DNA of 49,110 nt from Dehalococcoidia bacterium. GTDB taxonomy: Bacteria; Chloroflexota; Dehalococcoidia; DSTF01; JACRBR01. This document shows, piece by piece, positions 19,990-26,836 of this stretch (position 1 is the stretch's first letter; the number at the start of each line of letters is the position of its first letter). Location of the stretch: positions 1 to 49,110 of the forward strand of contig JADMII010000018.1 of assembly GCA_015478665.1 (NCBI GenBank), in the 5' to 3' direction. A model generated the notes under the pieces. That model saw only the letters and a program-made list of their open reading frames with translations, was not told the origin of the DNA and did no database searches. Both the position numbers and the translations under genes were made by a program.

Positions 19990-20697
19990 TCAGGCGGCCT
20001 TGCGTTGCCCATCGTCGGGCGCGGGATCGCCGGCGGCGCCGGTCTCCTGCAGGTAGAGCAGCACCGCCTTCACCCTCGGGTGCGCCGCCTGGTCGCGGCT
20101 CAGGTTCAACTGCCCGAAGATCGCGTTGATGTGATTCTCGACGCTCTTCTCTTCGAGCACGAGCGCCCGCGCCACGGCGCCGTTGTTGTAGCCGCGCGCC
20201 ATCAGCGACAACACCTCGAGCTGCCGCTTCGTCAGCGCCGACAGCCGCGTCTCCCGCCGCCCCAGCACGTCGAGCACGACCGGGTCGAGCACCACCAGGC
20301 CCGAGGCGGCGCCGTCGATCGCCCGCACAAGGGTGGCGATGTCGGCTACGGACTGCCGCAGCAGGTACGACCAGCCGGCGGCGCGGAACGCCGGCAACGC
20401 CGCCAGCATGCGCGTATCCGGCCGCTCGCCGAGGAACATGACGCGCGTCCGCAGACGGGCGCGTCCGAGCTCCTGCGCGACGGCCAGCGCCATCTCCTCG
20501 TTGGCCGCATCGATGCCGATCAGCGTGACCTCGGGCCGGGTGCGGACGGCGACATCGAGCGCCGAGCCGGCGTCTCCGGCAGCGCCGGTCACCTCGAGCT
20601 GCGGCTCGCCGGCGAGGACGGAGCTGAGCATGTCGCGCAGGAGCCCGTCGCGCTCCACGACGAGGACGCGGATCGGCATCTTCTTCGGCGTCTGCAT
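19990..20697 (-). CDS. LuxR/NarL-type response regulator with a degenerate receiver
   Basis: The 235-residue regulator has an N-terminal receiver-like domain (IRVLVVERDGLLRDML) and a C-terminal LuxR helix-turn-helix at about residues 165-222 (LTKRQLEVLSLMARGYNNG, KSVENHINAIFGQLNL). Key receiver residues are missing: the acidic pair reads E15-R16, the phospho-acceptor position is Gly61 (TLIGIDA in place of LLDI) and the conserved Lys is Arg (YLLRQS). It probably does not work by normal phosphorylation. The ATG at 20697 is chosen because GATAAT lies 7 nt upstream; the longer frame upstream is low complexity. It is divergent from the archaellum operon, 567 nt away, so it is a candidate regulator of it. 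Confidence 0.88.
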   Translation of the reverse strand: MQTPKKMPIRVLVVERDGLLRDMLSSVLAGEPQLEVTGAAGDAGSALDVAVRTRPEVTLIGIDAANEEMALAVAQELGRARLRTRVMFLGERPDTRMLAALPAFRAAGWSYLLRQSVADIATLVRAIDGAASGLVVLDPVVLDVLGRRETRLSALTKRQLEVLSLMARGYNNGAVARALVLEEKSVENHINAIFGQLNLSRDQAAHPRVKAVLLYLQETGAAGDPAPDDGQRKAA

Positions 20698-20704
20698 CGC
20701 CTCG

Positions 20705-20710
20705 ATTATC
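20705..20710 (-). promoter_or_regulatory. -10 element of the LuxR-type regulator (leaderless type)
   Basis: GATAAT on the minus strand ends 7 nt before the ATG at 20697. Confidence 0.4.
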
Positions 20711-20961
20711 GGACGCGCTTCCCGCGCACGCATGCGGGAGAGCGCTGATTCCCGGCCTCGGCGAGGCATCGGACGGCCCGCGCCGCAGGCGGTGTCCGGC
20801 GGCCCCCGCGACGGCTGTGCGGCGCCGCGGGCCTCGCGAGGCTTCTCCACGAGGTCTGGCTGCACCGGCGGCGGACACGTCGCTCTGACCTTGCTGCGGC
20901 CTCCGTTCCGGCGGCCCGCGCTCACGGCGATGGCACCGAGCGCGGCGCCAGATTCAGCATA

Positions 20962-21178
20962 GGTGAAGGCACCCGCGGAAGTCGGGTGCAATCACCATGC
21001 GCCGCGCCGCCTACCGGCACGAACCTTCAACGGTACACGGACGTGCCGGCAGGCCAGCGCAGGGAAGGGCGCATCTGGTCCCCGGGCGTCTGAGCCCACG
21101 GGGTGACAGACGGCCGGGTAGCAAAGGAGTGCGCGACCAAGCCTGCGATCTCTCTCACACACACACAGGCTCGCGCTC
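20962..21178 (+). promoter_or_regulatory. Structured region upstream of archaellin (possible 5' leader RNA)
   Basis: The 567-nt gap upstream of arlB contains a chain of inverted repeats. GGTGA/TCACC encloses GCACCCG/CGGGTGC (20962-20996). ATGCGCC (20997-21003) pairs with GGCGCAT (21068-21074) around a 13-position stem with one mismatch, 21009-21021 with 21042-21054. CCCGG...CCGGG encloses GTCTG/CAGAC (21081-21118). GAGTGCG/CGCGCTC encloses AGCCTG/CAGGCT with a CA-rich loop (21127-21178). An A/G-rich single-stranded segment, TAGCAAAGGAG, lies between the last two. This looks like a folded mRNA leader, possibly a riboswitch or protein-binding element, but I could not assign it to a known class. 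No clear promoter is seen in the gap. Confidence 0.4.
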
Positions 21179-21264: not shown

Positions 21265-21849
21265 ATGAAGCGGATTATGCAACTCGTCCGCCGAATGCGG
21301 GACGAGCGCGGCATCACCGGCCTGGAGACGGCGATCATCCTGATCGCCTTCGTCGTGGTCGCCGCCGTGTTCGCATTCGTCGTACTGAGCACGGGCCTCT
21401 TCAGCTCCGAGCGGGGCAAGGAGGCAGTGTACGCGGGCCTCGCGAAGACACGGGGCACGATGGAGCTCTCGAGCGGCGTCATCGCGACGTCGAACACGAC
21501 GACCGGCCTGACGAAGATCACCTTCGACGTCGCGCTGGCCGCCGGTGGTGACTCGGTCAACCTGGACCCGGCCGCGACGACCAACCGAACCGTGATCAGC
21601 TACATCGACAGCTCGACGACCGTGAGCAACGTGACGTACACGGTTTCGCCGCTGGTCGGCAACGGCGACAATCTGCTGCAGCCGGGCGAGCTCTTCGAAG
21701 TGAGCATCGACACGACGCAGGCCGGCTTCCCGACCATCGGCACGAACGCCACGTTCACGCTCGAGATCAAGCCGCCGAGCGGCTCGTTCATGGTGATCCA
21801 GCGGACGACGCCAGCGTCGATCTCGGACACGACGATCGACCTCAACTAA
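21265..21849 (+). CDS. arlB: Archaellin (archaeal-type flagellin)
   Basis: The 194-residue filament subunit of an archaellum has a class III signal peptide: basic MKRIMQLVRRMRDERG, predicted cleavage after Gly16, then ITGLETAIILIAFVVVAAVF, the archaellin hydrophobic helix, with Glu at +5 of the mature protein. The rest is a beta-rich, Ser/Thr-rich outer domain without cysteine. Four of its eight Asn are in N-X-S/T sequons (NTT, NRT, NVT, NAT), so N-glycosylation is conceivable. GGAGGA is 6 nt before the ATG; the upstream in-frame extension is not credible. First gene of the archaellum cluster, followed by a hairpin. A prepilin peptidase is needed for processing and is not in the window. Confidence 0.93.
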   Translation: MKRIMQLVRRMRDERGITGLETAIILIAFVVVAAVFAFVVLSTGLFSSERGKEAVYAGLAKTRGTMELSSGVIATSNTTTGLTKITFDVALAAGGDSVNLDPAATTNRTVISYIDSSTTVSNVTYTVSPLVGNGDNLLQPGELFEVSIDTTQAGFPTIGTNATFTLEIKPPSGSFMVIQRTTPASISDTTIDLN

Positions 21850-21875
21850 GGGCGCTCAGGACGAGGGCTCGGGAG

Positions 21876-21903
21876 GGGCGGCCGCCCATCGGGACGGCCG
21901 CCC
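21876..21903 (+). terminator. Hairpin between archaellin and the downstream archaellum genes
   Basis: GGGCGGCCG (21876-21884) pairs with CGGCCGCCC (21895-21903) around a 10-nt loop, 27 nt after the arlB stop. There is no T-tract. It could act as a partial terminator or RNA-stabilising structure that lets archaellin exceed the minor components. Confidence 0.45.
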
Positions 21904-21939
21904 TGCCCCCTACCGGCCGCAGAGGCCGCGAAAGGCAGG

Positions 21940-22659
21940 ATGGCCGTGGACGCGCAACCGCTCAGCTCGAAGGTCGCCGCGCTCGAAGCGAAGGTGGCGG
22001 TCCTCGAGGACGAGGGCAAGATCATCAAGGGTGAGGTGAAGCAGATCCTCACCGAGATCCGCACGGCTATCCTCTCCCGCGTCGACAACCCGTTCGATGA
22101 GGTCGCGGGCGGCGGCCACGCCCAGGCGGCGACCGTGCAGGTCGTCTCGGCGGCGGCGCCGGACCTCGCGCGCGTCCAGATCATCGCGCCGGAGCCGCCG
22201 CCCGTCGGCGAGCGCGAGCCGGAGCCCGCACCCGAGCCGGCGCCCGAGCGGGTGCCCGCGCGGCCTTCCCGCCCGGCCGAAGACGAACGCAGCATCGATG
22301 CGAAGGAGCCGATCATGCTGAGGCCCGCAAGCGCCGCCGCACCCATGCCCGAGCCGCTGGCGCCGGCGTCGTCGCCGCAGTGGAGCCTGCTGACGATTGC
22401 CAGCCTGACGGCCTGGGCGGAAGAGGCGATGGGGCGCCTGGGCGCGCTGCGCTTCGAGATCCTGCTCGACCTCTGCGAGGCGGCGGGGCACGTCTCGCCC
22501 GAAGCGCGCGCCGCTCTCTCGCGGGTACGCGAGTTGGACGTGACGGCGCCGGAGCACGCGCCCTCGACGAACGAGACGATCGTCGTGCTGCGCCAGCTCG
22601 ATGCGCTGCTGAACGACGACGCCGGCGACCAGCCGGGGCTGCACGCGCTGCGACGGTAA
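21940..22659 (+). CDS. ArlC/D/E-like cytosolic archaellum protein
   Basis: 239 residues. Residues about 8-50 form a coiled coil (LSSKVAALEAKVAVLEDEG). A Pro/Glu-rich linker follows (about 85-125, with repeated EPEPAPEPAPE-type units). The C-terminal domain, WSLLTIASLTAWAEEAMGRL then FEILLDLCEAAGHVSPEARAAL, matches the FlaD/FlaE (ArlD/E) C-terminal domain of archaea, where 'W.EE....G' and a helix ending in 'G.I....' are typical. In archaea these proteins link chemotaxis signals to the motor base. I cannot say which of C, D or E it corresponds to, since this may be a single fused version. ATG 21940 follows AAAGGCAGG. Confidence 0.8.
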   Translation: MAVDAQPLSSKVAALEAKVAVLEDEGKIIKGEVKQILTEIRTAILSRVDNPFDEVAGGGHAQAATVQVVSAAAPDLARVQIIAPEPPPVGEREPEPAPEPAPERVPARPSRPAEDERSIDAKEPIMLRPASAAAPMPEPLAPASSPQWSLLTIASLTAWAEEAMGRLGALRFEILLDLCEAAGHVSPEARAALSRVRELDVTAPEHAPSTNETIVVLRQLDALLNDDAGDQPGLHALRR

Positions 22660-22708
22660 GAAGGGACGTCTTCGCCCTCCACGGGGCGGACGCTGAAGGA
22701 GTGGCGTC

Positions 22709-23185
22709 ATCGATAAGGCAATCACGACCATCATGCTCACCATCGCCGCCATCGTCGCGGTCGTCGCCGTGACGAACGCCGTGCTGCCCTCCGTCGGCCG
22801 CACGACGGGCGCGCTCGTCTCGACGTCGAGCGTCGTGCAGGACCGCATCGCCAGCCAGATCGAGATCGTCAACGCGACGGCACAGGACGCCGACCCGGAC
22901 GCGCGCGTCTGGGTGAAGAACATCGGCGCGGTGAAGGTGCAGCCGGTCGAACGGATGGACGTCTTCTTCGGGCCGTCGGGCAACTTCCAGCGGGTGCCAT
23001 ACGGCGGCGCCGGCTGCGCGGCGCCGTGCTGGGAGTACACGATCGCGAACGCGACGGACTTCGAGCCGACGGCGACGCTGTCGATCGTGATCCACAACAG
23101 CGGCAACCTGAGCGCGGGGCAGACGTATTACGTGAAGGTCGTGACGCCGAACGGCATCGACGACTCGAAGTACTTCACGATCTGA
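22709..23185 (+). CDS. arlG: ArlG-like archaellum stator protein (start uncertain)
   Basis: From ATG 22733 the protein has 150 residues and starts inside its hydrophobic helix (MLTIAAIVAVVAVTNAVLP). Reading 8 codons further 5' adds IDKAITTI, which restores a class-III-like N-terminus; those codons begin with ATC at 22709, 7 nt after AAGGAG (22696-22701). No ATG, GTG or TTG is in frame there. So the gene may use ATC as start, or the assembly may have a base error (GTG at 22701 is one frame off). The rest is a secreted beta-domain (ARVWVKNIGAVKV, TLSIVIHNSGNLSAGQTYYVKV), as in ArlF/ArlG proteins that anchor the motor outside the membrane. Assignment to G versus F is tentative. Confidence 0.78.
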   Translation: MDKAITTIMLTIAAIVAVVAVTNAVLPSVGRTTGALVSTSSVVQDRIASQIEIVNATAQDADPDARVWVKNIGAVKVQPVERMDVFFGPSGNFQRVPYGGAGCAAPCWEYTIANATDFEPTATLSIVIHNSGNLSAGQTYYVKVVTPNGIDDSKYFTI

Positions 23186-23194
23186 GGCGAGGCG

Positions 23195-23707
23195 ATGGAG
23201 AGTGGAATCCCGGCCCTGCTGATCGCCGCCGTCCTCATGCTGTCGACGGTCTTCCTCGCGCGCGGCGGCTTCGTCGGCATGGATGCGGTGGGCCAGCAGC
23301 TCAAGCAGTCGGAAGTGAACATCGGCGCGCAGAACCGCAGCGGCATCACGGCGACATCGGCGAGCATCGACCCGACGGGCGCGAACATCACCATCGACGT
23401 GCTGAACAGCGGCCAGACCGACATCTCGCAGTACAGCCAGATGGATGTGCTGCTGCAGTACTTCGATGAGAACGGCACGCGCTACGACACGTGGATCCCG
23501 TACACGTCTGGCGCGCTCGCCGCCGATACCTGGACCACGGGGACGTTCACCAACGATGCCTTCGAGCCACGGATCCTCAACCCGGGCGAGAGTATGCAGG
23601 TCCTGATCCGGGTCAACCCGCCGGTCGGCGCCGGCACGACGAACCGCGCGATTATCGGCACGGAGAAGGGCGTCACGCTGCAGACGTACTTCTCCGGGCC
23701 GCCCTAG
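23195..23707 (+). CDS. arlF: ArlF-like archaellum stator protein
   Basis: 170 residues: a short N-terminus (MESGIP), one membrane helix (ALLIAAVLMLSTVFLARGG), then a secreted beta-sandwich (ANITIDVLNSGQTDISQYSQ, MDVLLQYFDENGTRYDTW). The immunoglobulin-like 'DVLNSGQT' pattern parallels 'WVKNIGAVK' in the preceding protein, as expected for the paralogous ArlF/ArlG pair that binds the S-layer or another outer layer in archaea. What they bind in a bacterium is unknown. Two or three N-X-S/T sequons are present. It starts 9 nt after the previous stop. F/G assignment is by position and similarity of fold, and could be reversed. Confidence 0.78.
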   Translation: MESGIPALLIAAVLMLSTVFLARGGFVGMDAVGQQLKQSEVNIGAQNRSGITATSASIDPTGANITIDVLNSGQTDISQYSQMDVLLQYFDENGTRYDTWIPYTSGALAADTWTTGTFTNDAFEPRILNPGESMQVLIRVNPPVGAGTTNRAIIGTEKGVTLQTYFSGPP

Positions 23708-23722
23708 GAGGGCGGGCCAGGG

Positions 23723-25321
23723 ATGGCGTTCTACACGAGGTTCCTGCCGGGCGCGGCGACGAAGGCCGCCCGCAGCGAGGCGGTCGAGGACGCGGCGAAC
23801 TGGCAGCGGCCGACGTCGTTCTTCAGGCCTGCGCCCGCGGACTACGACCTCGTCGCGCAGCTGACCTACATGTCGGCGCTGGCGACGGCGAACGTCGGGC
23901 GCGAGGAGCTGTTCCACAAGACGGCGCAGCTCGGCTACACGACGTCGGGGTATTTCCACCGCGTGCACCTCGTCGCGCAGCGGCTGAACTACGACTACGC
24001 CCGCGCCTGCCAGATCGTCGCCGATGCGACCGAGAGCGAGGTCGTGAAGAGCCTGCTGCTCCGCTTCTCGAGCTCGCTCGCCTCCGGCGAAGCCGAATCC
24101 GTCTTCCTCGCGCGCGAGACCGAAATCCAGATCGAGCACTACTCGCGCAAGTACGAGCGCGACCTCGAGTCGCTGCGCAAGTGGACCGATGCCTACGTCG
24201 CGCTGATGGTCTCCGTGACGCTCGTCGTCGTCGTCTCGCTCGTCTCGATGATGATCTACAGCGTCGGCACGATCTTCATCTTCGGCCTGGCAGCGGTGAT
24301 GATCGGCATCGCCGCCATCGGCGACTGGATCATCTACCGGACGGCGCCCGTCGAGCCGAAGACGCACCGGCGCGCCGAACGCTCGCGGACGCAATCGCAG
24401 ATGCTCCGCGTCGCGCGCGTGCTGATCCCGGCGGCCGCCGTCGCCGGCGCGCTCGCCGGACTGCTCTCCGGCATCGGCGCCGGACTCGTCGCGGCGGGCG
24501 TCTTCGTCGCGCCGGTCGGCTTCCTGGCGTTCCTCGATGACCGGCGCGTCGACCAGCAGGACCGCGACGTCTCGACGTTCCTGCGGGCGCTCGGCTCCGT
24601 CGTCGGCGCCATCGGCACGACGGTGACGGAGGGCATGGAGCGCCTGAACCTGCGCTCACTGGCGTCGCTCGAGCAGGGGGTACGGCGGCTTCATGTGCGG
24701 CTGCGCTCGGGCATCCGGCCGGACATGTGCTGGGACCGCTTCATCTCGGAGACCGGCAGCGAGCTGGTCGACCGCTCCGTCGGCACCTTTTGGGACACGA
24801 TCAAGCTCGGCGGCGACCCCGACCAGATCGGCTACCTCTCGTCGCTCTTCGCGATGAAGATCTCGCTGATGCGCGAGAACCGCAAGCTGATCTCGCAGAC
24901 CTTCATGTACCTGATCATCCCGCTGCACGCCGTCCTCGTGACGATCCTGCTCTTCATCACGGAGGTGATGGCGATCTTCGCGACGCAGCTCGCCGGCATC
25001 CAGACATCGGCGCTGACCAACACGCAGTCGAGCCAGCAGGCCGGCGTCGACGTCACGAACGTGCTGGCGTTCGCCGCGCCCAACGTCGCCTTCATCCGCG
25101 GCTTCGCGCTCGTCGTGACGCTCGTGCTCACGGTCGTCGACGCCTGGGCGCCGCACGCGACCTCGGGCGGGCATCACCACAAGTTCTGGATCCACCTGTC
25201 GCTGATGATGGTGCTCTCCGGGCTGGGGTTGCTGTTCATCCCGCAGGCCGTGCAGGCGCTGTTCCACAACATCGCCGGCGACCTGGCGAGCGCGCCGGTC
25301 ACGCCAGGCCCGTCGCAGTGA
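23723..25321 (+). CDS. arlJ: Archaellum assembly platform protein ArlJ (T2SSF family)
   Basis: The 532-residue membrane protein belongs to the GspF/TadC/FlaJ family. The cytosolic N-terminal domain contains YMSALATANVGREELFHKTA and RLNYDYARACQIV, matching the FlaJ T2SSF domain. Paired membrane helices occur at about residues 165-215 and 232-272. A second cytosolic T2SSF domain follows (STFLRALGSVVGAIGTTVTEGMERL, YLSSLFAMKISLMRENRKLISQTF), then three further helices (about 393-415, 448-468, 488-510). The 'LG..IG.......G.....' second-domain signature and high helix count are typical of ArlJ rather than PilC. It would form the rotor platform driven by ArlI, which is absent here. It starts 15 nt after arlF. 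Confidence 0.9.
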   Translation: MAFYTRFLPGAATKAARSEAVEDAANWQRPTSFFRPAPADYDLVAQLTYMSALATANVGREELFHKTAQLGYTTSGYFHRVHLVAQRLNYDYARACQIVADATESEVVKSLLLRFSSSLASGEAESVFLARETEIQIEHYSRKYERDLESLRKWTDAYVALMVSVTLVVVVSLVSMMIYSVGTIFIFGLAAVMIGIAAIGDWIIYRTAPVEPKTHRRAERSRTQSQMLRVARVLIPAAAVAGALAGLLSGIGAGLVAAGVFVAPVGFLAFLDDRRVDQQDRDVSTFLRALGSVVGAIGTTVTEGMERLNLRSLASLEQGVRRLHVRLRSGIRPDMCWDRFISETGSELVDRSVGTFWDTIKLGGDPDQIGYLSSLFAMKISLMRENRKLISQTFMYLIIPLHAVLVTILLFITEVMAIFATQLAGIQTSALTNTQSSQQAGVDVTNVLAFAAPNVAFIRGFALVVTLVLTVVDAWAPHATSGGHHHKFWIHLSLMMVLSGLGLLFIPQAVQALFHNIAGDLASAPVTPGPSQ

Positions 25322-25408: not shown

Positions 25409-25816
25409 ATGAGTTGGCTGCGCAGGGGACGCGATCCGGAGGAGTTCGACGACGCGCCGAAGCCGCCGCCGCCCTACGTGCCCGCCTCAATGCGGCCACG
25501 GGCGATGCCGGAATTCGCCGCCGATCCGGCGGACGACGACGAGGCCGACGGGCAGTTGCAATTCCTCGCCTCGCTGGCGGACGAGGTAGAGCGGGAACAG
25601 CACCAGGCACGCCGGCAGCCGGCGAGCACGCGCTTCCAGCGTCGCGACATCGAGCTCGACGCCGACGATGCGCTGTGGGCGTTCCGGGAGCCGGCCGAGC
25701 GCACCGACCCCTACGAGGGCCTGCGTCGCTTCACCGGAGGTGACGTCGAGATCGACGAGCTCATCGACGACCTGGCGATCACGGCCGCCGCCCTCCGCCG
25801 GCGGCGCGCGGCGTAG
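25409..25816 (+). CDS. Hypothetical 135-residue acidic protein downstream of arlJ
   Basis: I recognise no family. The protein is soluble and strongly charged: MSWLRRGRDPEEFDD, a Pro-rich patch (KPPPPYVP), an acidic segment (DPADDDEADGQLQFLASLAD), and a C-terminal part (DVEIDELIDDLAITAAALRR) that looks helical. GAGGTGAC precedes the ATG. It sits 87 nt after arlJ and 12 nt before the amidase gene, on the same strand, so it is probably transcribed with the archaellum genes or with the amidase. A role in motor assembly or regulation is only a guess from position. Confidence 0.65.
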   Translation: MSWLRRGRDPEEFDDAPKPPPPYVPASMRPRAMPEFAADPADDDEADGQLQFLASLADEVEREQHQARRQPASTRFQRRDIELDADDALWAFREPAERTDPYEGLRRFTGGDVEIDELIDDLAITAAALRRRRAA

Positions 25817-25828
25817 CGGCAGATCGGC

Positions 25829-26836
25829 ATGTCGCGCTGGGCCTCGATGCTGCTCCTGCTTTCGATGGCGCTCTGGACGGCGCTCACCGCCGCCTTCGGC
25901 TGGTCGCTCGTCCGGCCACGGAACGCCGCAGCGCAACCCGTCGTCGTGTACGACGTCACGTCGCCGGGCAGCGCGCGCCGCGTGTACGCGCTCACGCTCG
26001 AGCAGGCGCGGGCGACGTTGCCTCCGCCGGTCCGCGCGCCGGTGAAGGCGCCGACGCTTGCCGCCCGCGCCTATCCCATCCCGGAGTACGCGCTCGATGC
26101 CGGCGTCTCCGCGCGCGTGCAGGCCGCCGACGCCGTCGCCGCGCGCCCGGCTCCGAAGCCGCCGGTGCCGCCATCGAAGGGAGTGATCGTCCTCGACCCG
26201 GGGCACGGGCGCGGCGACCCGGGCGCCGTCCACTACGTGCCCGACGGATCGGGCGGCTACGACCTCATCGAGGCCGATTCCAATCTCGAAAACGCGCAGC
26301 GCGTACGCGACGACCTCGAGGCGATGGGGTACACGGTCTACCTGACGCGCACCGGCGCTGGCAACGGGCCGGGCGCGCCGCTGCCGCTGCAGTTCATCAC
26401 GTCCGACCTCTACGCGCGGGTCGCGCTGGCGAAGGCGGTGAACGCGCAGCTGTACGTCGCCTTCCACGGCAACGGCTCGACGGACCGCCGCCTGAGCGGC
26501 GTCGAGACGTGGTACTGCGGCAAGCGCGCCGCCGGCGACGCGAACGCCGACCTGGCGTCGCGGCTGCAGCGCGCGATGATGGATGCGCTGCACGCATACG
26601 GCTACTTCCCGCCGGACCGCGGCGTCATGGAGGACGCGGCGCGGCACGATGCCAGCTTCTGCCAGTTCGTCGTCACCCGCGAGGCGCCGGTGCCCGCCGC
26701 GCTCGTCGAGTTCCTCTTCCTCACGAACGATGCCGACGCCAAGGTGCTGCTCGACCCGCGCGCACACGAGCTGATGGCGCAGTACGTCGCCGCGGCGATC
26801 GACGGCTTCATGCGCGATCGGGGAGGTGGGCGCTAG
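25829..26836 (+). CDS. N-acetylmuramoyl-L-alanine amidase (Amidase_3), membrane-anchored
   Basis: 335 residues: an N-terminal membrane helix or uncleaved signal (about residues 5-27), a linker of about 90 residues, then an Amidase_3 domain. Zinc-site features are VLDPGHGRGDPGAV (His), LIEADSNLENAQRV (Glu), YVAFHGNGSTD (His) and PAALVEFLFLTNDAD (catalytic Glu). These enzymes cut the bond between muramic acid and the stem peptide. It follows the unknown protein by 12 nt, in line with the archaellum operon. Local wall opening for the filament would be one plausible reason for that placement, but it may be unrelated cell-wall turnover. Confidence 0.9.
   Translation: MSRWASMLLLLSMALWTALTAAFGWSLVRPRNAAAQPVVVYDVTSPGSARRVYALTLEQARATLPPPVRAPVKAPTLAARAYPIPEYALDAGVSARVQAADAVAARPAPKPPVPPSKGVIVLDPGHGRGDPGAVHYVPDGSGGYDLIEADSNLENAQRVRDDLEAMGYTVYLTRTGAGNGPGAPLPLQFITSDLYARVALAKAVNAQLYVAFHGNGSTDRRLSGVETWYCGKRAAGDANADLASRLQRAMMDALHAYGYFPPDRGVMEDAARHDASFCQFVVTREAPVPAALVEFLFLTNDADAKVLLDPRAHELMAQYVAAAIDGFMRDRGGGR

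Follow-up and report, generated by a model that had tools for sequence, protein, structure and literature searches.

A split set of archaellum genes and a predicted accessory protein family, pX, in Dehalococcoidia

Introduction

Does a run of five genes on a Dehalococcoidia contig encode an archaellum, is the machine complete in that genome, and how would it be seated in a bacterial cell wall? These questions are raised by contig C55 of genome G000 (Dehalococcoidia, Chloroflexota), which was analysed over its whole length of 49,110 bases and is referred to here as the window. An earlier note, made from the sequence of the window, had read five consecutive genes at 21265-25321 as encoding an archaellin, an ArlC/D/E-like protein, two ArlF/G-like stator proteins and ArlJ, and had suspected that such systems might be known in Chloroflexota. 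Archaella of this phylum, acquired by gene transfer from archaea, have indeed been published (PMC12488501, PMC10444878), and the bacterial archaellum itself is not new; for its origin by transfer we rely on the published tree. In a 2026 study of the Litorilinea aerophila envelope (PMC13319060), the anchoring of archaella in peptidoglycan-bearing Chloroflexota without PilO and PilN was stated as unknown; PilN was proposed there to contribute to the L. aerophila anchor, and PilO and PilN are not universal in the phylum.

Our analysis supports an archaellum as the system encoded in the window, with its components divided between two genomic units, and points to a family of small proteins, here named pX, as a dedicated accessory of the machine. 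We put the probability of this whole account, namely a functional archaellum, a real split and pX as a dedicated component, at roughly 0.7, and our confidence is higher for the functional archaellum and the real split than for the docking role that we propose for pX.

The assembly of G000 consists of 66 contigs (2.67 Mb, 98.9% complete, ~1% estimated contamination). The comparison set comprised 294 genomes of the class, 47 of which carry ArlJ orthologues, and 48 arl loci were compared; a draw from the phylum Chloroflexota yielded no archaellated genomes outside the class. The window's family is labelled f1 (genera g1-g4) and includes G000, G137, G016, G169, G070 and G212, the last two forming genus g3; f2, f3 and f4 are other families of the same order. 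Proteins were assigned using Pfam, NCBIfam and PDB matches, together with our own family profiles A1, A2, A3 and A7.

An archaellum gene set in two units

The motor ATPase of the system, ArlI, is encoded on contig C26 and passes the NCBIfam archaellum-motor model NF058587 (634.7 bits, cut-off 550; 163.6 with the TadA model), and its KaiC-like partner ArlH, on the same contig, passes NF004723 (263.8 bits, cut-off 194). The cluster has no TadA- or PilB-type motor ATPase. Two Tad-type ATPases encoded elsewhere in the genome (C1, C22) form a clade of their own in the ATPase tree, with ArlI standing apart with full support. An A24-family prepilin/archaellin peptidase is encoded on contig C62 (PF01478, 1.4e-12).

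All five open reading frames of the earlier note are present on the forward strand (Table 1), and in the profile searches that it had proposed, archaellin, ArlF, ArlG and ArlJ each matched archaellum families. The archaellin scores 93.9 bits against Pfam Arch_flagellin (cut-off 29.5) and has a TIGR02537 domain match above cut-off; its class III signal peptide, also noticed previously, would be cut after Gly16, followed by ITGLETAIILIAF. The two stator assignments hold as well, since the family profile of ArlG (A3) matches the Sulfolobus FlaG structure 5tug at 3.5e-15 (5tug/6pbk ~4e-15) and that of ArlF (A2) matches FlaF 4p94 at 3.8e-8. ArlJ reaches 441 bits with NCBIfam NF004703, which is under that model's curated cut-off of 570. 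The ArlCDE-like reading of the second gene is kept on its position, on a predicted N-terminal coiled coil (helix 6-46) and on a helical C-terminal domain (helices 150-225) modelled beyond a disordered linker; a match to Pfam, PDB profiles or Foldseek folds was not obtained for this protein.

On gene content, a full set of archaellum components is present in G000, in two units, and the archaellum is probably complete and functional. Neither arlH nor arlI lies in the window, an absence that had gone unremarked although the order of the five genes had been read correctly; the whole-genome search places the two genes adjacent to each other on C26, followed by a second copy of pX. Judged from contig positions, at least ~37 kb separate arlHI from the window cluster. 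No remnant of arlJ was detected behind arlI on C26 by tblastn, and the gap between arlF and arlJ in the window is 15 bases, leaving no space for arlH and arlI. In the published Chloroflexota archaellum, a single locus holds the whole set of machinery genes (PMC12488501), whereas here arlHI is on C26 and the rest on C55.

In f2, f3, f4 and other orders, the genes are arranged as arlB-CDE-G-F-H-I-J in one locus, or with F-J-H-I in a few. Together, arlH, arlI and arlJ were found in 41 loci outside f1, and it is in f1 only that arlH and arlI stand apart. The split is, on the genomes compared, real and confined to this family. The genes arlHI and arlJ are on different contigs in G000, G137, G016 and G169, and in G016 both halves lie deep within long contigs (143,966 and 295,874 bases). 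In the two g3 genomes, arlHI shares a contig with arlB and lies divergently upstream of it (2.4 kb upstream in G070). Since the ArlI tree and the ArlJ tree both have G070 as the first branch of f1, this divergent arrangement looks like an earlier stage. The moved arlHI lies near the same acyl-CoA-synthetase-like gene in G137, G231, G016 and G169, which suggests a single ancestral move with a later rearrangement in G000.

ArlJ of the window is 86% identical to that of its closest same-genus relative (G137) and 75% to that of a same-family relative (G169), and the arl cluster has a GC content of 68% vs 71% for the window. Archaeal ATPases taken from plasmid records gave just three haloarchaeal sequences, with partial matches only, and the two archaeal sequences in the ArlI tree form long branches whose placement is not interpretable.

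Several further genes related to the machine were observed. Contig C47 (4814-5395) encodes a second full archaellin, which shares 69% identity with that of the window, is nearly identical to it in the N-terminal half and stands alone beside galactose-metabolism genes. There is a third archaellin-like protein, divergent in sequence, which begins with a class III signal peptide (DAGITGVETAVVIGGLVLA), likewise stands alone (C62, 7004-7600) and retains a ...GDGMLEPGEL... pattern resembling that of archaellin. A two-domain KaiC-like protein is encoded at 117359-118711 of C10. In g3, a membrane protein gene lies between the divergent arlHI and arlB (L077 11249-13060 in G070, contig C17; L078 2754-4577 in G212); it has a weak match to a Cache sensor domain, a possible input to archaellum expression. 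Tandem pairs of arlI-like ATPase genes occur in some arl loci (L069 3324-6810 in G068, L101 in G113 and L103 in G219).

The pX family

The 135-residue open reading frame behind arlJ and the amidase gene following it had been singled out in the earlier note as distinctive additions. Both are real and conserved, and they proved to be the interesting part of the locus; they are features of the lineage, however, and not unique to this genome. For pX, no trustworthy match was found in Pfam, NCBIfam or PDB. Its conserved part is a C-terminal motif of ~43 residues (DLLxxFxxxxxExxxxxxLxxxLxDVxxxxLLxE...), encoded at 25667-25798 in the window, with an invariant Phe; the starts and lengths of these small acidic proteins vary between loci. 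Many members start in a membrane helix and others in a short basic stretch (MGLLKKKP, MRLFGRKRKRE), with an acidic linker behind. In G153, the motif, a membrane helix and LysM domains follow each other in one protein. In its structure model, which has a predicted template modelling score (pTM) of 0.25, most of the window's pX lacks regular structure; helices are modelled at 45-66 and, C-terminally, at 115-134.

Of the 48 loci, 40 have a pX gene with a clear score behind their last core gene, and one more (G126) has one with a weak score. Two copies are present in f1, one after arlJ and one after arlI, the second copy of G016 lying at a third place. In G051 and G247, pX is on another contig, and the family is retained where it is unlinked from arlJ (G051, the second copy of G016, and G139).

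Profile A1 was seeded with sequences of 16 genomes; at E <= 1e-3 it picked up pX in another 16, each of which has archaellum genes. Profile A7, built from 47 seeds including the pX of the window, matches in 47 of the 294 genomes, among them 43 of the 47 with ArlJ. The four other matching genomes either have arlH/arlI (G139, G231, G212) or come from an archaellum-rich family (G252). The co-occurrence of pX and ArlJ gives 3e-42 in a Fisher test (43, 4, 4, 243), in which related genomes are not independent. Because A7 was trained on arl loci, its matches there are partly by construction, and the informative results are the A1 search made before it and the near lack of hits in the remaining ~243 genomes. 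We infer from these data that pX serves the Chloroflexota archaellum as a dedicated accessory protein, and we predict that its C-terminal peptide docks onto the cytoplasmic motor.

Away from any arl gene, an extra short pX-like motif was seen in family f51 (L110-L116: G186, G063, G109, G175 and G252). In G035 (L064, 7008-7310) and G252 (L112, 5825-6196), a pX motif has as its neighbour a small membrane protein with several passes, which is similar in the two genomes.

Cell wall genes beside pX and the upstream regulator

The gene that starts 12 bases after pX encodes an N-acetylmuramoyl-L-alanine amidase with a membrane anchor. Its residues His126, Glu148, His213 and Glu294, assigned by analogy with the family as the zinc ligands and the catalytic Glu, are invariant across eight orthologues from two families. 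The amidase follows pX in all six loci of f1 and in both loci of f3. The same place is occupied in f4 by transglycosylase (SLT)/M23 proteins, in G264 by a LysM membrane protein and an M23 peptidase, and in G153 by a LysM protein, so that several unrelated peptidoglycan-acting genes took the place behind pX. PilN (PF05137) was not found in G000, one of 14 genomes without a match among the 17 archaellated ones that were searched; PilO was not part of the search.

Upstream, a LuxR/NarL-type gene divergent from arlB is a candidate regulator of the cluster. A divergent LuxR-type gene occupies the same position in G016, G158 and G085, and the relative in G158 carries a receiver domain.

Table 1. Features of the archaellum region, with positions in the window
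Feature	Position	Strand	Length (aa)	Evidence
LuxR/NarL-type protein, candidate regulator	19990..20991	-		Pfam GerE 2.1e-10; divergent from arlB
arlB, archaellin	21265..21849	+	194	PF01917 1.7e-26; PDB 9i5h 1.4e-37
arlCDE-like (putative)	21940..22659	+	239	sits between arlB and arlG in relatives; structure model
arlG, stator protein	22733..23185	+	150	profile A3; NCBIfam ArlG 3.8e-7
arlF, stator protein	23195..23707	+	170	profile A2; NCBIfam ArlF 2.5e-4
arlJ, membrane platform protein	23723..25321	+	532	NCBIfam ArlJ (NF004703) 5.1e-132
pX, copy behind arlJ (predicted accessory protein)	25409..25816	+	135	profile A7 E 2.0e-10; conserved position
N-acetylmuramoyl-L-alanine amidase (Amidase_3), N-terminal membrane anchor	25829..26836	+	335	PF01520 1.4e-32

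Alternative explanations

A Tad or type IV pilus system misread as an archaellum is a hardly credible explanation of the cluster. All these machines share a common ancestry, ArlJ also matches T2SSF weakly (0.029), and the genome does encode two Tad-type ATPases; yet these ATPases fall in a separate clade, the ArlI score and the presence of ArlH speak for an archaellum motor, and the ArlF and ArlG profiles match solved archaellum stators. A pilus identity was rejected on the ArlI and ArlH models, the stator profiles and the ATPase tree taken together. It is also very improbable that the split was produced by assembly or binning, with arlHI on C26 being foreign or broken off by the assembler, as a draft of 66 contigs with some estimated contamination might suggest: the short arlF-arlJ gap has no room for the two genes, the trees of ArlI and ArlJ are in agreement about the family, and G070 shows the divergent arrangement on one contig. 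A binning artefact was rejected because the relatives G137, G016 and G169 show the same split. A locus broken into two, in an order where some relatives lack ArlJ and in a genome in which no CheW domain was found, could instead be a decaying remnant without function. We consider this improbable, given that every reading frame is intact, that identities to the sister species are 91% for ArlH and 86% for both ArlI and ArlJ, that the extra archaellin genes are retained and that other near-complete genomes of f1 keep both ArlI and ArlJ.

The roles of the two added genes are open to more serious competition. As a short, conserved, docking-like peptide in a phylum without CheF (PMC12488501), pX might act as an adaptor in regulation or switching, taking for example the place that CheF has at ArlCDE in archaea, instead of being a tether to membrane or wall, and two-component genes do follow it in G247. 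This explanation is unlikely, though it carries real weight; G000 has pX yet no CheW-domain protein, an N-terminal membrane helix is present in many pX proteins, and in one of them the motif is joined to a membrane helix and LysM domains. Likewise, the amidase could be an ordinary cell-wall gene next to the arl genes by chance, since Amidase_3 enzymes are common and most arl loci outside f1 and f3 have none here. We regard chance adjacency as doubtful, because the enzyme follows pX in every f1 and f3 locus, and was thus kept when arlHI left the operon, because it is so close to pX in G000, and because unrelated wall enzymes hold a similar place in f4 and G264.

Several observations weigh against our account of a functional archaellum with pX as a dedicated component. 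No CheW-domain protein was found in G000, which makes a standard chemotaxis array and chemotactic steering unlikely, and the filament and the motility of this bacterium are predictions from its genes. In four of the 47 genomes with ArlJ there is no detectable pX, the pX motif is short and the structure model is of low confidence. The pX searches covered the 294 genomes of the class, so that Anaerolineae and archaeal loci lie outside them. Wall genes adjoin pX in a minority of the 48 loci only (f1, f3, f4, G264 and G153), and the amidase might have a routine task in wall growth or division.

Proposed mechanism

By analogy with established archaellum biology, archaellin would be cut by the A24-family peptidase and polymerised on ArlJ by the ATPase ArlI together with ArlH, which would drive both assembly and rotation through ArlJ, with ArlF and ArlG forming the stator. 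An ancestral operon, arlB-CDE-G-F-H-I-J-pX-amidase, would have been broken in f1, where arlH-arlI and a copy of pX became a separate unit, at first divergent and nearby (g3) and then elsewhere in the genome (g1, g2, g4). We propose that pX acts as a tether with a flexible acidic linker, its C-terminal peptide sitting on the cytoplasmic motor while its start binds the membrane or, where pX is fused, reaches towards the wall. A wall enzyme, here the amidase, or a LysM protein would act with pX so that the motor is seated at the peptidoglycan, and the enzyme may open or remodel the peptidoglycan where stator and filament pass.

Comparison with known archaella

The locus resembles that of L. aerophila (PMC12488501, PMC13319060) in its core (arlB, CDE, G, F, H, I, J), in the arl2-like arlGF order and in having the peptidase outside the locus, and the best match of the window's archaellin is the solved archaellin 9i5h. 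Unlike in L. aerophila, arlHI stands apart in G000. L. aerophila has PilN and PilO-LysM nearby, whereas in G000 PilN was not found, and the amidase and pX are present; the word amidase occurs in neither of the two L. aerophila papers, and pX is not described in their accessible parts. With the SAR202 member Candidatus Lucifugimonas marina (PMC10444878), the genome shares its class, the scattered extra archaellins and the flaGF order; the single cluster described there has flaB copies followed by flaGFHIJ, with neither a split nor an amidase reported in the accessible text of that paper.

The archaeal arl2 loci (Archaeoglobus, Sulfolobus) also have ArlG before ArlF and the same core, with ArlI homologous to 4ii7 and ArlG to 5tug. 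These archaea have no peptidoglycan wall, and neither pX nor an amidase is known from their arl2 loci, at which no search was aimed.

Conclusions

The split locus, the pX family and its association with wall enzymes appear to be undescribed in those parts of the published work that were accessible; pX may have been listed elsewhere as a hypothetical neighbour. The split locus is a case of a transferred machine rearranged after its transfer, and searches that demand a single locus will miss or undercount systems of this kind. Together with the neighbouring wall enzymes, the pX family offers concrete candidates for the anchoring question posed in PMC13319060. More tentatively, and at somewhat short of an even chance, pX may be a near-universal component of bacterial archaella that couples an archaeal motor to a peptidoglycan envelope with the help of recruited wall enzymes, and the machine of f1 may be made from two separately placed, possibly separately regulated units.

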